Source: an uncultured bacterium
Lineage (GTDB): Bacteria; Planctomycetota; UBA8108
Length of the DNA stretch: 36,094 bases
Assembly (NCBI GenBank): GCA_913042995.1
Contig: CAJWMA010000003.1
Span: 1 to 36,094 of the forward strand
Direction: 5' to 3'
The notes under the pieces are model-generated. The model was not told where the DNA came from, did no database searches, and worked only from the letters and a program-made list of their open reading frames with translations. A program made the position numbers and the translations under genes. Each line of letters begins with the position of its first letter. Position 1 is the stretch's first letter. This document shows, piece after piece, positions 22,911 through 30,223 of this stretch.

Positions 22911-22940
22911 TTGCCGATGGGCTCATCTGAGGGCTATATT
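22911..22940 (+). promoter_or_regulatory. Candidate promoter for the arg leader transcript
   Basis: TTGCCG (22911-22916) - 18 nt - TATATT (22935-22940). Confidence 0.45.
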
Positions 22941-23021
22941 CGGCAGTTAAGCGTTGTCGTGCGGCAACGGTGCCAGTCACGGCTAAAACCCGGTTGAATA
23001 GCATATTTGGGGTTCGCAAAG

Positions 23022-23114
23022 ATGAATACTCTTCGTTCTAGACCTAGATCAACCCGCAGACGCTCCAGAGCGTCCTGCGCCCGTTGTCGGCTGGCTCGAA
23101 GATCCCGCATCTGA
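23022..23114 (+). CDS. Candidate arginine-rich leader peptide (30 aa, 12 Arg)
   Basis: ATG AAT ACT CTT CGT TCT AGA CCT AGA TCA ACC CGC AGA CGC TCC AGA GCG TCC TGC GCC CGT TGT CGG CTG GCT CGA AGA TCC CGC ATC TGA = MNTLRSRPRSTRRRSRASCARCRLARRSRI*. Weak SD-like GGGG about 10 nt upstream. Confidence 0.65.
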   Translation: MNTLRSRPRSTRRRSRASCARCRLARRSRI

Positions 23115-23186
23115 GAAAACGCCAGGGGGCCGAGAGGAATTCCCGGACCCCGGCGAAGCGGAAACAACCAGATCTTTGAAGGCCAG

Positions 23187-23223
23187 CCCACTCCGGAATC
23201 AGTCACTGGAGTCGGGTTTTTTT
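23187..23223 (+). terminator. Intrinsic terminator between the leader ORF and argB (candidate attenuator terminator)
   Basis: CCC-ACTCCGG (23187-23196) pairs with CTGGAGT-c-GGG (23206-23216) with a 9-nt loop and one bulge, followed by T7 (23217-23223). Confidence 0.85.
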
Positions 23224-23269
23224 CGTTTCACGCCCCCATTTACCAGCTAATACCAGGATTTAAAGTCTC

Positions 23270-24181
23270 GTGGAAAACATAGAAGTACTCAAACACGCGC
23301 TCCCCTACATCAGGCAGTACCGCGATTCGACCTTTATCATCAAGGTCGGCGGCGAGCTGTTGCAGGCCGATGGTTTTCTTGATCGTCTCAGCCACGATGT
23401 CGCCCTGCTCTACCAGCTGAATATTCGCGTGGTCATTATCCACGGCGGCGGTCCCCAGCTCTCTGAGATGGCGGAGAAGATCGGGATTGAGAGCGTCAAG
23501 GTCAACGGGCGCAGGATCACCGACGACCGCATGATCGAGGTGGCCAATATGGTCTTCAGCGGCGCCTCCACCGACATCCTGGGGGCTCTGCGCAGTCACG
23601 GGACGCCCGCGGTCGGTCTCTCCGGAGTCGATGGCGACCTGGTCCAGGCGACGAGGCGGCCGCCCGTGAAGCTGGTTGACAGGGAGACGGGAGAGGAGAA
23701 GGAGGTCGACTTCCAGAACGTCGGCGACATCGATGTGGTGGATTCCAAGGTTCTGAATGTCCTTCTCGATAATCGGTTTGTTCCCGTGGTCGCGCCGCTG
23801 GGAGCCGATAGCGCCGGCAACGTGCTCAACATCAACGCCGACACCATCGCCTCCATGGTCTCCGCGGCCATGCCAGCCGAGAAGCTCTTCCTGCTGACGA
23901 ATGTGGGTGGAGTTCTCGAAGATATAGATGATCCTTCGAGCCGTATCAGCTATCTCACAGAGTCAAGCGCCGAGAGCCTGCTCGCCGACGGGGGCGTCTC
24001 GGGCGGCATGATGCCGAAGCTGCAGTCGGCTGTCGACGCCGTGCGCGCGGGAGTGAAGCGGGCGCATATTATTGATGGCCTGGCGGATAACTCGCTCCTC
24101 TTCGAGGTCTTCACCAAGAAGGGGACCGGCACGATGGTCATCAGCGATAGCGCCGAGTCCGAATACCTGGAGCAGGGATGA
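23270..24181 (+). CDS. argB: Acetylglutamate kinase
   Basis: GTG start; FIIKVGGELLQ, VVIIHGGGPQLSEMAEKIGIESVKVNGRRITDD, LNINADTIASMVSAAMPAEKLFLLTNVGGVL, GGVSGGMMPKLQSAVDAVRAGVKRAHIIDG. Confidence 0.95.
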   Translation: MENIEVLKHALPYIRQYRDSTFIIKVGGELLQADGFLDRLSHDVALLYQLNIRVVIIHGGGPQLSEMAEKIGIESVKVNGRRITDDRMIEVANMVFSGASTDILGALRSHGTPAVGLSGVDGDLVQATRRPPVKLVDRETGEEKEVDFQNVGDIDVVDSKVLNVLLDNRFVPVVAPLGADSAGNVLNINADTIASMVSAAMPAEKLFLLTNVGGVLEDIDDPSSRISYLTESSAESLLADGGVSGGMMPKLQSAVDAVRAGVKRAHIIDGLADNSLLFEVFTKKGTGTMVISDSAESEYLEQG

Positions 24182-25545
24182 TGCGAAGCGGACGATTCGA
24201 AAAAGGCATGGCCGACAATATGCGGAGCCTCAACGCCTCCATCAGCTTCGATAAGCGGTTCTACCGCGAGGATATCGAGGCCAGCAAGGCCTGGGCGCGC
24301 GGTCTGTCGGGGCTTGGCTTTCTCTCCGAGGATGAGCTGGGCCAGATCTGCTCAGGGCTGGACCAGGTCGCCGGCGAGATCGAGTCGGGAAGCTTCACCT
24401 TCAGTGAAGAGCTTGAGGACATCCACATGAACGTCGAGGCCCGGTTGAGCGAGCTCATCGGGGAGGCCGGGGCGAAGCTGCATACCGGCAGGAGCCGCAA
24501 TGACCAGGTGGCGACGGACTTCCGTCTCTATGTGAAGCGAGCCGCTGAAGAAGCAGCCGATGCCATCGGGGCACTGATGAAGGCGGTCGTCGAGAGCGCT
24601 GAGGCGTGCCAGGATGTCGTTATTCCCGCCTACACTCACCTGCAGCGCGCCCAGCCGGTGCTCTTTTCCCATCACCTGCTGGCCTATGTAGAGATGCTCG
24701 AGCGCGACAGGCGCCGGTTCCTCTGGGCCGCGGAGCAGGCCGACTCCTGCCCACTGGGCTCGGGAGCCTGTGTCGGTAACCAGTTTGGCATCGACAGGGA
24801 GAAGCTGCAGGAGGATCTGGGCTTCAGCTCGTTGACCTCTAATTCGCTCGATGGAGTGAGCGACCGGGATTTTGCCTGCGATTTTCTCTACGCCGCCTCC
24901 ATGCTGATGGTTCACCTCTCGCGTTTCAGCGAGGACATCATCCTCTGGATGACCAGCGAATTCGGCTTCGTGCGCCTGGATGATTCGGTTACCTCCGGCA
25001 GCTCGATGCTTCCACAGAAGAAGAACCCCGATGCCTGCGAGCTGGCCCGCGGTAAGACTGGCCGGGTTGTGGGTCATCTCATCGGGCTGCTGACCTGCCT
25101 GAAGGGATTGCCGCTGTCCTACAATAAGGATCTGCAGGAGGACAAGGAGGGGGTCTTTGATACTCATGATACCCTGCTTGGCATTCTTGGGGTGTTTACG
25201 ACGATGGTCGAGACCATGCAGGTTGACCGGGAGCGTACAGCCGGAAGCCTCGAGGGCGGGTATCTCGAGGCGCTTGGAGTCGCGGACTACCTGACCCGAA
25301 AGGGAATGCCCTTTCGGGAGGCCCATGGCCTTGCAGGGAGCTGTGTACGGAGAGCCGAGGAGCTGGGGGTTTCGCTTCCTTCTCTCGACCTCGAGGAGTA
25401 CCGCTCCATCCACGAGGCCTTCGAGGAGGATCTCTTCGAGGCGATCTCGGTCGAGGGCTCGCTCGCCGACAAGGATGTGCCCGGGGGTACCGCCCCGAGC
25501 CAGGTCGCCGCGCAGCTCGAGCGCTGGAGGGAGGCGCTCAAATGA
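24178..25545 (+). CDS. argH: Argininosuccinate lyase
   Basis: [39 protein letters not shown]; signature [25 protein letters not shown] overlap with argB. Confidence 0.95.
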
Positions 25546-25640
25546 TCATGGGCCAGGTAAAGAAACAGAACCAGGAGACCGGCGCGGTTGCCGGTCGGAT
25601 TAACGCGCTCCAGGCGCGATTCCAGAAGGACCACGGATAA
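25542..25640 (+). CDS. Possible 32-aa small protein between argH and argG
   Basis: ATG overlaps argH stop (aATGA); [32 protein letters not shown]; ends 4 nt before argG ATG. Confidence 0.45.
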   Translation: MIMGQVKKQNQETGAVAGRINALQARFQKDHG

Positions 25641-25644
25641 CCAA

Positions 25645-26865
25645 ATGAACCAGGCCAGGAAAATCGTTCTAGCTTATTCCGGAGGACTTGACACCTCCTA
25701 TTGCATTCCCTACCTGCTCGAGCAGAAGGGCTTTGAGGTCGTGACCGTCACGGTTGACACCGGTGGATTCGATGCCGCCGAGCTCGCCGAGATCGAGGAA
25801 CGCTCGAGCTCCCTGGGAGCCATCGAGCACTACACCATCGACGCTCGCCAGGAGGTCTTCGACCGCTGGGTGAGCTACCTGGTGAAGGGCAATGTGCTCC
25901 GCGGCCAGGTCTATCCACTGGCGGTGGCGGCCGAACGCGTGGTGCAGGCCGAGGTCATCGCCCGCAAGGTGAAGGAGACGGGAGCGGATGCCGTCGCGCA
26001 TGGCTCCACGGGAGCCGGCAATGACCAGGTTCGCTTCGATACCGCCTTTCATGTGCTGATTCCGGGAATCGAGATTGTCACTCCCACCAGGGATGAGAAA
26101 CTCAGCAGGGAGGAGGAGTACGACTTCCTGAAGGAGCGGGGCGTCGATATTGACCCGAGCGTTCGCGAATACTCGATCAATTCAGGGCTCTGGGGCTCGA
26201 CGATCGGCGGTGGTGTGACACACGATTCCGGCAGCGAGATTCCGCGTGATGTCTTTGAGCAGGCGGTGGCTACCGATGAGGTGGAAGGTGGCGAGCTGCT
26301 CGAGATCGGCTTCGAGAAGGGAGTACCGGTCGCGCTTGGCGGTGAGGCGCTCAATGGCGTCGACCTGGTAAATAAGCTGGGTGAGCTCTGCCGGGGCTAC
26401 AGGGTCGGACTCGGAGTTCATATCGGGGATACGGTCCTTGGCATCAAGGGGCGGATCGCGTTCGAGGCCGGGGCGGCGATAGTGCTCATCCACGCGCACC
26501 GTGAGCTCGAGAAGATAACCCTGACAGACTGGCAGCGTTTCTGGAAGGACCACATGGCCTCCTTCTATGGAAAGCTGCTGCATGAGGGGCAGGCCTTCGA
26601 GCCCGTGCTCAGGGACATAGAGGCCATGATCGATTCTTCCCAGGAGCGCGTGACTGGAACGGCCGGGGTGCGCTTCGGCCCCGGGACCTTCAGCGTTGTC
26701 ACGACCGCGAGCCCCTGCACCATGGCGGGCGCGGAGGCCGGCGTCTACGGTGAGATGCCCAAGCTCTGGGAAGGCAACGACGTTCGGGGATATTCGACGA
26801 TTTCAGCGATTCCTTCACGGCTCTACAGGAGCGCCGGGGAGAATGACCAGGCGAAGGACGAGTGA
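25645..26865 (+). CDS. argG: Argininosuccinate synthase
   Basis: MNQARKIVLAYSGGLDTSYCIPYLLEQKGFEVVTVTVDTGG; GSTGAGNDQVRFD. ORF track starts upstream at 25588, but the family N-terminus fits 25645. Confidence 0.95.
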   Translation: MNQARKIVLAYSGGLDTSYCIPYLLEQKGFEVVTVTVDTGGFDAAELAEIEERSSSLGAIEHYTIDARQEVFDRWVSYLVKGNVLRGQVYPLAVAAERVVQAEVIARKVKETGADAVAHGSTGAGNDQVRFDTAFHVLIPGIEIVTPTRDEKLSREEEYDFLKERGVDIDPSVREYSINSGLWGSTIGGGVTHDSGSEIPRDVFEQAVATDEVEGGELLEIGFEKGVPVALGGEALNGVDLVNKLGELCRGYRVGLGVHIGDTVLGIKGRIAFEAGAAIVLIHAHRELEKITLTDWQRFWKDHMASFYGKLLHEGQAFEPVLRDIEAMIDSSQERVTGTAGVRFGPGTFSVVTTASPCTMAGAEAGVYGEMPKLWEGNDVRGYSTISAIPSRLYRSAGENDQAKDE

Positions 26866-26883
26866 AGCTTCAGAGAGGGTGAG

Positions 26884-27930
26884 ATGACCAATTCGGCAAA
26901 CGACCAGCTGAGGGTGGGTGTTTTCGGGGGCTCCGGTTATATCGGCGCCGAGCTGCTGCGCTATCTCAGCGCTCATCCCGCCGTGTCTCTTTCCTGGGTG
27001 ACCGCGCATTCCAACGTCGGGCAGGAGGTGGGCGCTGTCCTGCCGAATCTCAAGGCCGCGGTGCCCGGAGCCTTCATCTCCCAGGCGGAGGGGGAAGAGA
27101 GGGTCTCCGAGGTCGATGTCGCCTTCGCGGCCCTTCCTCACAACGAGTCTCAGAACCTGGTTCCGAGGCTTGCCGAGGCCAGTCCTGAGATACGTTTTAT
27201 CGACATGGCCGGCGACTTCCGGACCAATGACGCCCAGGGCTATGAGAAATACTACGGCTGCGAGCATGGCGCCGCTGACTGGCTGCCGCGTTTTACCTAC
27301 GGCTTCACCGAGTTCCAGCGCGACAAGGTGCGTGAGGCCCGCCTGGTGGCGAATCCGGGTTGTTTCGCCACCGGCATGCTGCTCGCCCTGGCGCCGCTGG
27401 CCGCCGCCGGGCGGCTCTCGGGAGATGTCTGCCTCCTGGGCCTGACGGGGTCCTCGGGTTCCGGAAACAAGCCGAGCTCGACAACGCATCATCCCGAGCG
27501 TTTCAGCAATGTACGCTCCTACAAGCCGCTGGCTCACCAGCACATGCTGGAGGTCGAGGCGTTTCTCGGTGGGCTGGGCGAATCCGACTTCAGCCTGCAG
27601 TTTGTGCCCCAGTCGGGTCCCTTCGTAAGAGGCATCTTCACGACCATCTTTACCCCGGGAGTGGGAGCTGACGATCTTCACGCGATCTATGCCGACACCT
27701 ACGGCGGGGAGAGCCTTGTGGAGGTGATGGAGGGCTCTCCCGATCTTCGCTGGGTCCAGGGCTCACCGCGGTCCTGGGTAGGAGTCGGCGGCGAGGGAGA
27801 TAATGGCGTGGTGTTTACCGTGATCGACAACCTCGGCAAGGGAGCCGCTAGCCAGGGTGTGCAGAACATGAACCTGATGTGCGGCCTGGATGAGACCGAG
27901 GGTCTTCGCGCGCCGGGTGGATTTGTTTGA
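26884..27930 (+). CDS. argC: N-acetyl-gamma-glutamyl-phosphate reductase
   Basis: RVGVFGGSGYIGAELLRYLSAHP; LVANPGCFATGMLLALAPL; SGSGNKPSSTTHHPER. Confidence 0.94.
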   Translation: MTNSANDQLRVGVFGGSGYIGAELLRYLSAHPAVSLSWVTAHSNVGQEVGAVLPNLKAAVPGAFISQAEGEERVSEVDVAFAALPHNESQNLVPRLAEASPEIRFIDMAGDFRTNDAQGYEKYYGCEHGAADWLPRFTYGFTEFQRDKVREARLVANPGCFATGMLLALAPLAAAGRLSGDVCLLGLTGSSGSGNKPSSTTHHPERFSNVRSYKPLAHQHMLEVEAFLGGLGESDFSLQFVPQSGPFVRGIFTTIFTPGVGADDLHAIYADTYGGESLVEVMEGSPDLRWVQGSPRSWVGVGGEGDNGVVFTVIDNLGKGAASQGVQNMNLMCGLDETEGLRAPGGFV

Positions 27931-27976
27931 CGGCCGCGGACATGCCCGGTTGGAAGCAACAGGAGAATCAAGCAGG

Positions 27977-29143
27977 ATGAATTCAAAAGAAACCGAGGAT
28001 CGCTACATCCTTCCGACCTACAACAATATTCGTTTTCCCCTGAGCTTCGTCCGAGCTGAAGGAAGCTATGTTGAAGATGATTCGGGCGGCCGCTACCTCG
28101 ATCTCTATGGAGGGCACGCCGTCTGCGTGCTGGGTCACTGCCATCCGAAGTGGGTTGAGGCGATCGCGGAGCAGGCGGGTACTTTCGATTTCTATTCGAA
28201 CCTCTGTTATTGCCCTGTTCGGGCGGAGGCCGCCAAGCTCATGGTCGAGCGGTGCTATTCCATGCACCAGGCGTTCTTCTGCAATTCCGGAGCCGAGGCG
28301 AATGAGACCGCCCTGAAGATCGCCCGCAAGGCGACCGGTAGAGAATACGTTGTTTCCATGGAGGAGGACTTCCATGGCCGGACGATCGGCGCGCTCAGCG
28401 TGACGGGCTTCGAGAAGTCGCGCGCCCTCTTCCCACAGAACATCTCCCGGTGGACGCGTTTTCTTCGTCTTGGCGACCTGGAGGCTTTTGATTCCCTTGA
28501 TCCGGAAGAGATCGCGGGCGTCATCCTCGAGCCTCTCCAGAGCGTCGTCGGCGTCAAGATGGCCGAGCCGGAGTACTACCGGGGGCTGCGGGACTGGTGT
28601 GATCGTACCGGCGCCGTGCTGATCTTCGACGAAGTGCAGACCGGAAACGGCCGAACCGGAAAATGGTTTGTCGGTGAGCACTGGGGGGTAGAACCGGACC
28701 TCGTGACCACGGCCAAGGGTCTGGGCGGGGGCTATCCTGTCGGCGCCGTTCTCGCGAATGAGAAGATCTCGGCCACGGTGGAAGCCGGAGACCAGGCCAC
28801 CACCTTCGGGGGAGGCCCGATGGCGGCCGCGGCGGTGGCCGCGACCTATCGCATCATCGAGGAGGAGGGTCTCGTCGAGCAGGTGGCACGGCTGTCCAGC
28901 GGCGTTATCGAGCGCCTCGGAGGATATGTCGGCCGGGGAATCGAGGAGGTTCGGGGTCTTGGCTATCTTCTCGGCGTGCGTTGCGAGAAGCCGGCGAAGG
29001 AGATCCAGGCGGCTCTTCTCGATCGCGGCATCCTGGTTGGTACCTCCGGAGATCCCCAGACCTTCAGGCTCCTGCCTCCACTGACGGTAAGCGAGGAGGA
29101 GTGGGGAGTCTTCTTCGCGGCGCTGGATGATATCTTCGCCTGA
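27977..29143 (+). CDS. argD: Acetylornithine (class III) aminotransferase
   Basis: YLDLYGGHAVCVLGHCHPKWVEAI; FCNSGAEANETALKIARK; LIFDEVQTGNGRTGKWF; TTAKGLGGGYPVGAVL. ATG at 27977 preferred over the longer track ORF. Confidence 0.93.
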   Translation: MNSKETEDRYILPTYNNIRFPLSFVRAEGSYVEDDSGGRYLDLYGGHAVCVLGHCHPKWVEAIAEQAGTFDFYSNLCYCPVRAEAAKLMVERCYSMHQAFFCNSGAEANETALKIARKATGREYVVSMEEDFHGRTIGALSVTGFEKSRALFPQNISRWTRFLRLGDLEAFDSLDPEEIAGVILEPLQSVVGVKMAEPEYYRGLRDWCDRTGAVLIFDEVQTGNGRTGKWFVGEHWGVEPDLVTTAKGLGGGYPVGAVLANEKISATVEAGDQATTFGGGPMAAAAVAATYRIIEEEGLVEQVARLSSGVIERLGGYVGRGIEEVRGLGYLLGVRCEKPAKEIQAALLDRGILVGTSGDPQTFRLLPPLTVSEEEWGVFFAALDDIFA

Positions 29144-29160
29144 GCCGATTTTCGCGCGCC

Positions 29161-29166
29161 TATAAT
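29161..29166 (+). promoter_or_regulatory. Possible -10 box of an internal promoter before argF'
   Basis: Perfect TATAAT at 29161-29166, 65 nt before the argF' start; no convincing -35. Confidence 0.3.
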
Positions 29167-29230
29167 GGCTTGCACATCCCCGGCTAAAGTGGGACATTCA
29201 ACGCCTTCAAAATACTGGTGGAGTCGTTAG

Positions 29231-30223
29231 ATGCGGCATTTCTACAGCTTGAACGAGTTCTCCTCTGAACAGATAGGGGAGTTTGTTAACAGGGCTCTCG
29301 CCTTCAAGGAGAACCCCTATTCGGAGGTTCTTGACCATCGCCAGATAGCCCTCCTCTTTCTGAACCAGTCCCTGCGTACTCGCTGTTCCTTCGAGGTAGC
29401 GACGAGGGAGCTGGGAGGAGATGTAAGCACTCTCGATGCCGAGACGCTCTTCGCCCTGGAGACCGAGTTCGGCAAACGCATGGACGGCGCCTCAGCCGAG
29501 CATGTGAAGGAGGCCATCGGCGTCTTCTCGCGTTACTTCTCGGCCCTGGGCCTGCGCTCCTTCGCGCGCGGCGAGGACCAGCAGGAGGATCTCCTGGACA
29601 AGACCTTTACCACGTTTCTCGAGCACGCGAAGATCCCGGTCTTCAATATGGAGTCGGCACTGTACCACCCCTGCCAGGCGCTCGCCGATCTCGTGACCAT
29701 CAAGGAGCTCTTTCAGGATTTCCAGGGACGCAAGGTCACCATTACCTGGGCGAACCATCCGCGCGCCCTTCCGATGGCTGTTGCCAACTCGGCCCTGCTG
29801 GCCATGACGAAGATGGGGATGCACGTCACCCTCGCTCATCCGGAGAAATTCGAGCTGCAGGAGGGAATCATGAATATGGCTGGCGACTTTGCCGGCGAAT
29901 CAGGCGGCAGTGTAGAGGTTGTCCATGATCGTCTCGAGGCGGCCGCCGATGCCGATGTGATCTATGCCAAGTCCTGGGGATCCCTGCTGCGTTACGATGA
30001 CCCTGCCGCTGAGCAGGATCTTCGCGACAGCCTGAAGGATTGGGTGGTGGACAGCGAGATGATGAGCCGTACGCGCAGAGCCTATTTCATGCATTGCCTG
30101 CCGGTGCGCAGGAATGTCGTGGTCAACGATGACGTTATCGACAGCAACCGGTCCGTTGTTCTGCAGGAGGCGGAGAACCGTCTCCATGCCCAGAAGGCGA
30201 TTCTTGAATGGATTTTTTCCTGA
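29231..30223 (+). CDS. argF': N-acyl-ornithine carbamoyltransferase (N-acetyl- or N-succinylornithine type, ArgF'-like)
   Basis: FLNQSLRTRCSFEVATRELGG; FNMESALYHPCQALADLVTIKE; TWANHPRALPMAVANSALLAMTKMGMHVTL; YAKSWGSL; HCLPVRRNVVVNDDVIDSNRSVVLQEAENRLHAQKAI. Pattern resembles AOTCase/SOTCase rather than canonical OTCase. Confidence 0.82.
   Translation: MRHFYSLNEFSSEQIGEFVNRALAFKENPYSEVLDHRQIALLFLNQSLRTRCSFEVATRELGGDVSTLDAETLFALETEFGKRMDGASAEHVKEAIGVFSRYFSALGLRSFARGEDQQEDLLDKTFTTFLEHAKIPVFNMESALYHPCQALADLVTIKELFQDFQGRKVTITWANHPRALPMAVANSALLAMTKMGMHVTLAHPEKFELQEGIMNMAGDFAGESGGSVEVVHDRLEAAADADVIYAKSWGSLLRYDDPAAEQDLRDSLKDWVVDSEMMSRTRRAYFMHCLPVRRNVVVNDDVIDSNRSVVLQEAENRLHAQKAILEWIFS

Follow-up and report, generated by a model that had tools for sequence, protein, structure and literature searches.

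Which signal governs the arginine operon of this uncultured planctomycete? The stretch of DNA that we analysed (36,094 nucleotides, hereafter the window; 59% GC) carries an argBHGCDF' cluster with a short arginine-rich open reading frame (ORF) in front of it. The textbook attenuators serve His, Trp, Leu, Ile/Val, Thr and Phe, and arginine is the standard case of repressor control. Our comparisons and folding models indicate that the leader is very probably a ribosome-mediated transcription attenuator that senses charged tRNA-Arg. The genes downstream of it, whose identities were confirmed by Pfam and NCBIfam, are as follows.

23270 to 24181, plus strand: argB, acetylglutamate kinase, GTG start at 23270 (Pfam/NCBIfam); first gene of the putatively regulated operon
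24178 to 30223, plus strand: argH, argG, argC, argD and argF', on the same strand and overlapping or closely spaced; the remainder of the presumed operon

The divergent gene upstream of the leader is fabI. The nearest named record for argB is that of the Planctomycetes MAG UBA1662 (98% identical), and other records close to the window come, going by their titles, from ocean samples. We compared the window's genome (G000) with three close relatives in its genus (G006, G008 and G009), one member of another genus of the same family (G005), two of a second family (G001 and G002), two of a third (G003 and G004) and a 62% complete genome with neither argB nor the leader (G007), all of the same order. 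In G008 the argB match (L004, G008:C124:3222-4130) has one in-frame TAG according to the search report.

What, then, does the leader consist of? Four elements precede argB.

22911 to 22940, plus strand: predicted sigma-70 promoter of the arg operon (promoter scan; TTGCCG, 18 nt, TATATT)
23008 to 23013, plus strand: Shine-Dalgarno-like TGGGGT, some 9 nt upstream of the ATG of the leader (sequence)
23022 to 23114, plus strand: Arg-rich leader peptide ORF of 30 codons, ATG start, 12 Arg, UGA at 23112-23114
23185 to 23223, plus strand: intrinsic terminator, stem-loop with a T7 tract (sequence and folding)

The predicted peptide reads MNTLRSRPRSTRRRSRASCARCRLARRSRI, then stop, with its Arg codons distributed as AGA (five), CGC (three), CGT (two), CGG and CGA. 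None of the other ATG-started ORFs of 20 to 60 codons in the window, 190 in all with this one, is as Arg-rich. In shuffled 36-kb windows, an Arg share of 40% or more was reached by 0.07 ORFs per window (6 of 100 shuffles, counted anywhere on either strand). AGA makes up 5 of the 12 Arg codons in the leader versus 7% of those in 19 genes of the window. Judged by its conservation and better placement, the ATG is the start, rather than an in-frame TTG 15 nt upstream, and we infer that the ORF is translated.

The promoter scan places the start of transcription at about 22947, and between the terminator and argB it found no promoter. A T-rich -35 region and GGCTATATTC are common to G006, G008 and G005; the G009 contig begins inside the promoter region, with TATAGT there. 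Around the Shine-Dalgarno-like site, the four genus members share ATTTGGGGTTCG unchanged within an otherwise variable region. The terminator pairs 23185-23196 with 23206-23216, ends in seven T at 23217-23223 and folds at -18.4 kcal/mol; a simple scanner missed the hairpin because of its 9-base loop. A terminator stands at the equivalent place in all four genus members, G005 and G001. As in ribosome-mediated transcription attenuators, a short ORF enriched in the operon's own amino acid, here Arg, lies between the promoter and the first structural gene, and as in the his/trp/leu type an intrinsic terminator separates that ORF from the gene. The original prediction had read the locus as having the layout of his/trp/leu/thr attenuators, and its description holds in each part: the translation of 23022-23114 agrees to the base with the 30-codon ATG ORF, its 12 Arg and their codon counts, sequence and fold both place a terminator between ORF and argB, the distances are those given (about 70 to 72 nt from ORF to terminator, 46 nt from there to the argB GTG), and argB heads the cluster by Pfam and NCBIfam. 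To the ORF and terminator of that layout we add a predicted antiterminator.

23089 to 23104, plus strand: antiterminator 5' strand, within the ORF (GGCTGGCTCGAAGATC); in the minimum free energy fold its partner is 23171-23188
23171 to 23188, plus strand: antiterminator 3' strand (GATCTTTGAAGGCCAGCC), overlapping the terminator stem foot at 23185-23188 (minimum free energy fold)
23034 to 23069, plus strand: predicted sensing codons Arg 5, 7, 9, 12, 13, 14 and 16 (folding model; a ribosome there leaves the antiterminator strand free)

This helix, formed by the 3' part of the ORF and 23171-23188, takes 23185-23188 from the terminator foot, and the leftover hairpin stands apart from the U-tract. 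The duplex of G000 beats 999 of 1,000 shuffles of the ORF segment; that of G005 is no better than shuffles of its very GC-rich segment. Does the position of the ribosome decide between the two structures? In our model, which is thermodynamic and not kinetic, a ribosome was placed on each leader at one Arg codon after another, or at the stop codon, the RNA was folded with the stretch that it covers kept from pairing, and the probability of the terminator foot, P(terminator foot), was read out. For G000 this value was 0.00 to 0.05 at Arg 5 to 14, 0.03 at Arg 16, at least 0.93 from Arg 21 onward and 0.97 at the stop. The other genus members (G006, G008 and G009) behaved similarly, with up to 0.26 at Arg 16. 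In G005, of the other genus, it stayed between 0.00 and 0.10 as far as Arg 21 and reached 0.91 at the stop, and in G001 it went from 0.00 at Arg 9 and 13 through 0.33 at Arg 15 to 0.67 at the stop. Set against an early Arg codon, the stop thus yields 0.97/0.01 in G000, 0.99/0.01 in G008, 0.91/0.00 in G005 and 0.67/0.00 in G001. When dinucleotide-shuffled leaders were placed before the same terminators, differences within 0.05 of the real one arose in 0 of 199 (G000), 0 of 227 (G008), 2 of 300 (G005) and 7 of 300 (G001) shuffles. The stop-codon result of G000 requires at least about 14 nt to be covered upstream of the P-site and is mostly lost at 8 or 11 nt; G008 and G005 hold at nearly all footprint settings, and G001 is intermediate. 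An antiterminator that excludes the terminator according to ribosome position is therefore predicted by the model for G000, G006, G008, G009, G005 and G001, and not for G002, whose leader showed no switch.

In untranslated RNA the antiterminator mostly wins (P(terminator foot) of 0.00 to 0.14 in most leaders, 0.64 in G008), so we see no sign of a trp-type protecting hairpin, and the model predicts that the operon would be turned on if the leader were no longer translated. The same calculation applied to other amino acid leaders of the order gave a modest switch for hisG and little or none for trpE and leuA. The model is thus no universal detector: a negative such as that of G002 means little, and a positive is supportive, short of proof.

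These elements suggest the following scenario. RNA polymerase would start near 22947, with a ribosome behind it translating the 30-codon ORF. When arginine suffices, this ribosome would reach the UGA at 23112-23114 and cover the 3' end of the ORF, leaving 23089-23104 unable to pair with 23171-23188; the stem at 23185-23216 would then form beside the U-tract, and transcription would end before argB. With charged tRNA-Arg scarce, the ribosome would wait on one of the first seven Arg codons (5 to 16), and 23089-23104, now free, would pair with 23171-23188 and remove the foot of the terminator stem, so that the polymerase would read into argBHGCDF'. The scheme predicts that only the first seven Arg codons serve in sensing, the 3' part of the ORF being given over to the antiterminator.

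If the leader works in this way, its working parts should be the ones that are kept. The ORF and the terminator stand at the same place in G006, G008 and G009; all 12 Arg are retained in each, and the ORF has no indels. Synonymous changes from AGA to AGG occur at codon 13 in G008 and codon 16 in G009, and the peptide in both genomes is MKPLRSRPRSTRRRSRAFCARCRLARRFRI, then stop. Measured from G000 to G008 and G009, respectively, substitutions number 15 and 23 in the 91 nt before the ATG, 10 and 6 in the 51-nt spacer and 16 and 20 in the 45 nt that follow the terminator, compared with 7 and 8 in the 93-nt ORF (no indel) and 0 and 2 in the 5' arm of the stem. Among the four genomes, the 19 nt leading up to that stem (23166-23184) show neither substitutions nor indels. 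Conservation is thus, on the alignment, confined to the apparent working parts of the leader. Since the genus members are close relatives, no compensatory base changes back the antiterminator helix.

Beyond the genus the design is kept and the sequence is not. The leader of G005, MRLRRRDEAGCRGRRTARLRRRGEERA, then stop, has 12 Arg in 27 codons, a Shine-Dalgarno-like GAGG and a strong terminator, and it is unalignable with that of the window's genus. In the second family, G001 has a weaker version based on AGA and AGG (MLIYSELFRKAVRNRPLTCVAWVGRPA, then stop; three AGA and one AGG), followed by a terminator, and G002 has a weaker candidate ORF with RSRP and only 10% Arg. The third family (G003 and G004) has terminator hairpins and no convincing Arg ORF. 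The strong form is therefore present in only five of the nine argB-bearing genomes of the order. The original prediction had asked for a conserved Arg-rich ORF and a downstream terminator in related argB leaders; such a leader is conserved within the genus, recurs in a second genus and reappears more weakly in a second family. We also considered G002 and G004 as further attenuators, each having a terminator and a short GTGGG:CCCAC complementarity, but with no switch in the model these are unproven. In G003 the promoter and a terminator-like hairpin (GACCCACAC...GTGTGGGTC) upstream of argB (L008, minus strand) are only about 30 nt apart, which leaves no room for a leader ORF; its leader peptide may possibly have been lost. 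As a separate observation, the leader peptides of the genus (RSRP, window 23034-23045), G001 (RNRP) and G002 (RSRP) have R-[SN]-R-P in common, and G000 and G002 encode it by the same DNA, CGTTCTAGACC, through homology or coincidence. We also inspected the regions upstream of 81 argB genes from elsewhere in the class and phylum, outside this order. In none of them does a terminator follow an Arg-rich ORF with an ATG start; within our sample the device is thus confined to the order, and a wider origin in the phylum was rejected. The carA loci of the order, inspected by eye, have no terminator or leader of the arg type, and a second attenuator copy before carA was likewise rejected.

Could a known regulator account for the operon instead? 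The ArgR domains PF01316 and PF02863 were found in 0 of the 10 genomes of the order (several of them incomplete; three besides the window's own at least 90% complete) and matched in 9 and 8 of 14 control genomes, respectively. Membership in an ArgR/AhrC regulon presupposes an ArgR encoded in the genome, and none of the ten encodes a detectable one. The leader had no Rfam match at the gathering score or at E values up to 1, so it holds no known T-box or riboswitch, and a structured RNA family of either kind (T-box or metabolite riboswitch) was rejected as the leader element.

In the same genomes, hisG, trpE and leuA are preceded by leaders rich in His, Trp and Leu, respectively, together with terminators. 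The hisG leader of G000 reads MTTILHVFHHCIHHHLRHSPERGSQVC, then stop, and precedes a terminator (L171, G000:C293, about 1199-1328); His-rich leaders followed by a terminator also precede hisG in G008 (L170) and in G002 (L169), the latter with a run of seven His, and these are probably his attenuators in Planctomycetota. The trpE leader of G000, MIAPRLSDCEKPALEAVCALWWIP, then stop, is likewise followed by a terminator (L154, G000:C93, about 651-780). The leaders of the trpE-like genes end in tandem Trp before the stop (...CALWWIP in G000, L154; ...GVIWWIP in G008, L155); the two peptides differ, the WWIP end is kept, and the terminator lies directly before the trpE-like gene. The leuA loci of the order (L123-L132) have a strong terminator just upstream, which follows an ORF ending in LLGILLLILLISEAGRS, then stop, in G000 (L126, G000:C34, minus strand) and an ORF with GIILVIVGLILPLP, then stop, in G001. 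With His, Trp and Leu leaders in the same genomes, leader-peptide attenuation looks like the lineage's general way, arginine being one case, and an attenuator acting in place of ArgR is the best reading of these sequences in Planctomycetota. We infer ribosome stalling, termination, read-through and the response to arginine; the original suggestion that stalling at Arg codons under arginine limitation favours read-through gains support from conservation, the modelled position-dependent antiterminator, the absence of ArgR and the His, Trp and Leu leaders.

Other explanations have to be weighed against this one. An Arg-rich nascent peptide might, together with free arginine or ornithine, halt its own ribosome in the manner of TnaC or SpeFL and so control the terminator. 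The size of the ORF suits such peptides, SpeFL (orf34) is an Arg- and ornithine-responsive leader (PMC6386406), and R-x-R-P is shared by the genus, G001 and G002. However, the peptide is kept within the genus and not between genera (MRLRRRDEAGC... in G005, with no RxRP), the constant feature being Arg content spread over the ORF; RxRP at residues 5 to 8 in the genus is early for tunnel-based arrest; and a ligand-induced early halt would turn a biosynthetic operon on when arginine is plentiful, which is the wrong sense. We consider arrest quite unlikely. That the ORF codes for a functional Arg-rich small protein, the hairpin ending its own transcript and argB being fed by read-through, is highly improbable. 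The ORF is indeed protein-constrained within the genus (synonymous Arg-codon changes, no indels), but the two genera share no sequence similarity, the antiterminator strand lies inside the ORF, the stretch between terminator and argB lacks a predicted promoter, and the ORF was found only immediately before argB, a leader DNA search of the order having matched only the four genus members at one place each. A plasmid search with the leader peptide gave no match.

Equally hard to credit is an attenuator ruled by a protein, a small molecule or general translation, with the Arg codons a by-product of GC-rich sequence. CGN codons do arise easily at 59% GC, and G002, G003 and G004 keep the terminator without a strongly Arg-rich ORF; against this, 40 to 44% Arg is far beyond chance, the bias toward AGA is not that of the window's genes (7%), Arg codons are kept through synonymous change, and no Rfam family matches. 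A chance ORF beside a chance hairpin, with no regulatory role, is barely conceivable: GC-rich DNA is full of short ORFs, and 0.07 ORFs this rich in Arg are expected per 36-kb window, but position, frame and Arg content are conserved across the genus, the arrangement recurs in another genus, and shuffles rarely give the pairing switch.

Taking the leader, then, as a tRNA-Arg-sensing attenuator, how does it compare with known systems? In fungi, an upstream ORF, the arginine attenuator peptide (arg-2 / CPA1), controls an arginine biosynthetic gene; that system is eukaryotic, and its conserved peptide arrests the ribosome at high arginine and acts through translation and mRNA decay. ArgR/AhrC regulons adjust the same pathway to arginine but rely on a protein repressor, neither domain of which was found in these ten genomes. 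With the his, trp, leu, ilv, thr and phe attenuators of Proteobacteria and Actinobacteria (his also in some Firmicutes), the leader shares an ORF rich in the operon's amino acid, a terminator, a competing antiterminator and ribosome position as the signal. It differs in arginine specificity, in the argBHGCDF' operon and in belonging to Planctomycetota; furthermore, the ORF itself contains the 5' strand of the antiterminator, and we saw no protecting 1:2 hairpin, so that the model predicts read-through for most of the leaders when they are not translated. In the open-access papers that we searched, the leader-peptide attenuators reported from Proteobacteria, Actinobacteria and Firmicutes serve Trp, Leu, Ile/Val, His and Cys, among other amino acids (PMC1262725, PMC2965389).

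Two bacterial leaders described in these papers use Arg codons, and neither serves arginine biosynthetic genes or is an intrinsic-terminator attenuator (PMC6386406, PMC13009471). In the orf34/SpeFL leader of speF (Salmonella, E. coli), pausing at Arg codons of a short ORF under low arginine alters downstream RNA structure, as proposed here, but it controls putrescine synthesis, has only two tandem Arg codons as sensor and works through Rho-dependent termination, RBS masking and RNase G decay, with no intrinsic terminator (PMC6386406). The rbfL leader of rbf (Staphylococcus aureus) also senses arginine limitation via Arg codons; unlike the present leader it has two of them, its target is the initiation of translation of a biofilm regulator, and the pause represses (PMC13009471). 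The open-access literature that we searched (subscription papers lay outside its scope) contained no leader-peptide attenuator for a bacterial arginine biosynthetic operon, which does not prove priority, and no leader-peptide attenuation for Planctomycetota; the kind of device is known, and its arginine specificity and phylum appear new in that literature.

We think it likely that in this ArgR-less order of Planctomycetota arginine synthesis, like that of histidine, tryptophan and leucine, is governed by leader-peptide attenuation, that the arginine version is codon-sensing and without a described precedent among bacterial arginine biosynthetic operons, and that it arose, or diverged, until two genera of one family came to share the design and no leader sequence. 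If true, an arginine attenuator without ArgR would show how control of one and the same pathway can pass from a protein repressor to tRNA charging, and amino acid leader-peptide attenuation would extend to Planctomycetota.

The enzymes of the pathway call for a last remark. None of the 10 genomes of the order has argJ, so there is no second ornithine-forming locus for comparison. The argF' product (window 29231-30223) is an N-acetylornithine carbamoyltransferase of the Xanthomonas type (389.9 bits against a cut-off of 288), and with the absence of argJ this points to the acetylcitrulline route of arginine synthesis in these Planctomycetota.
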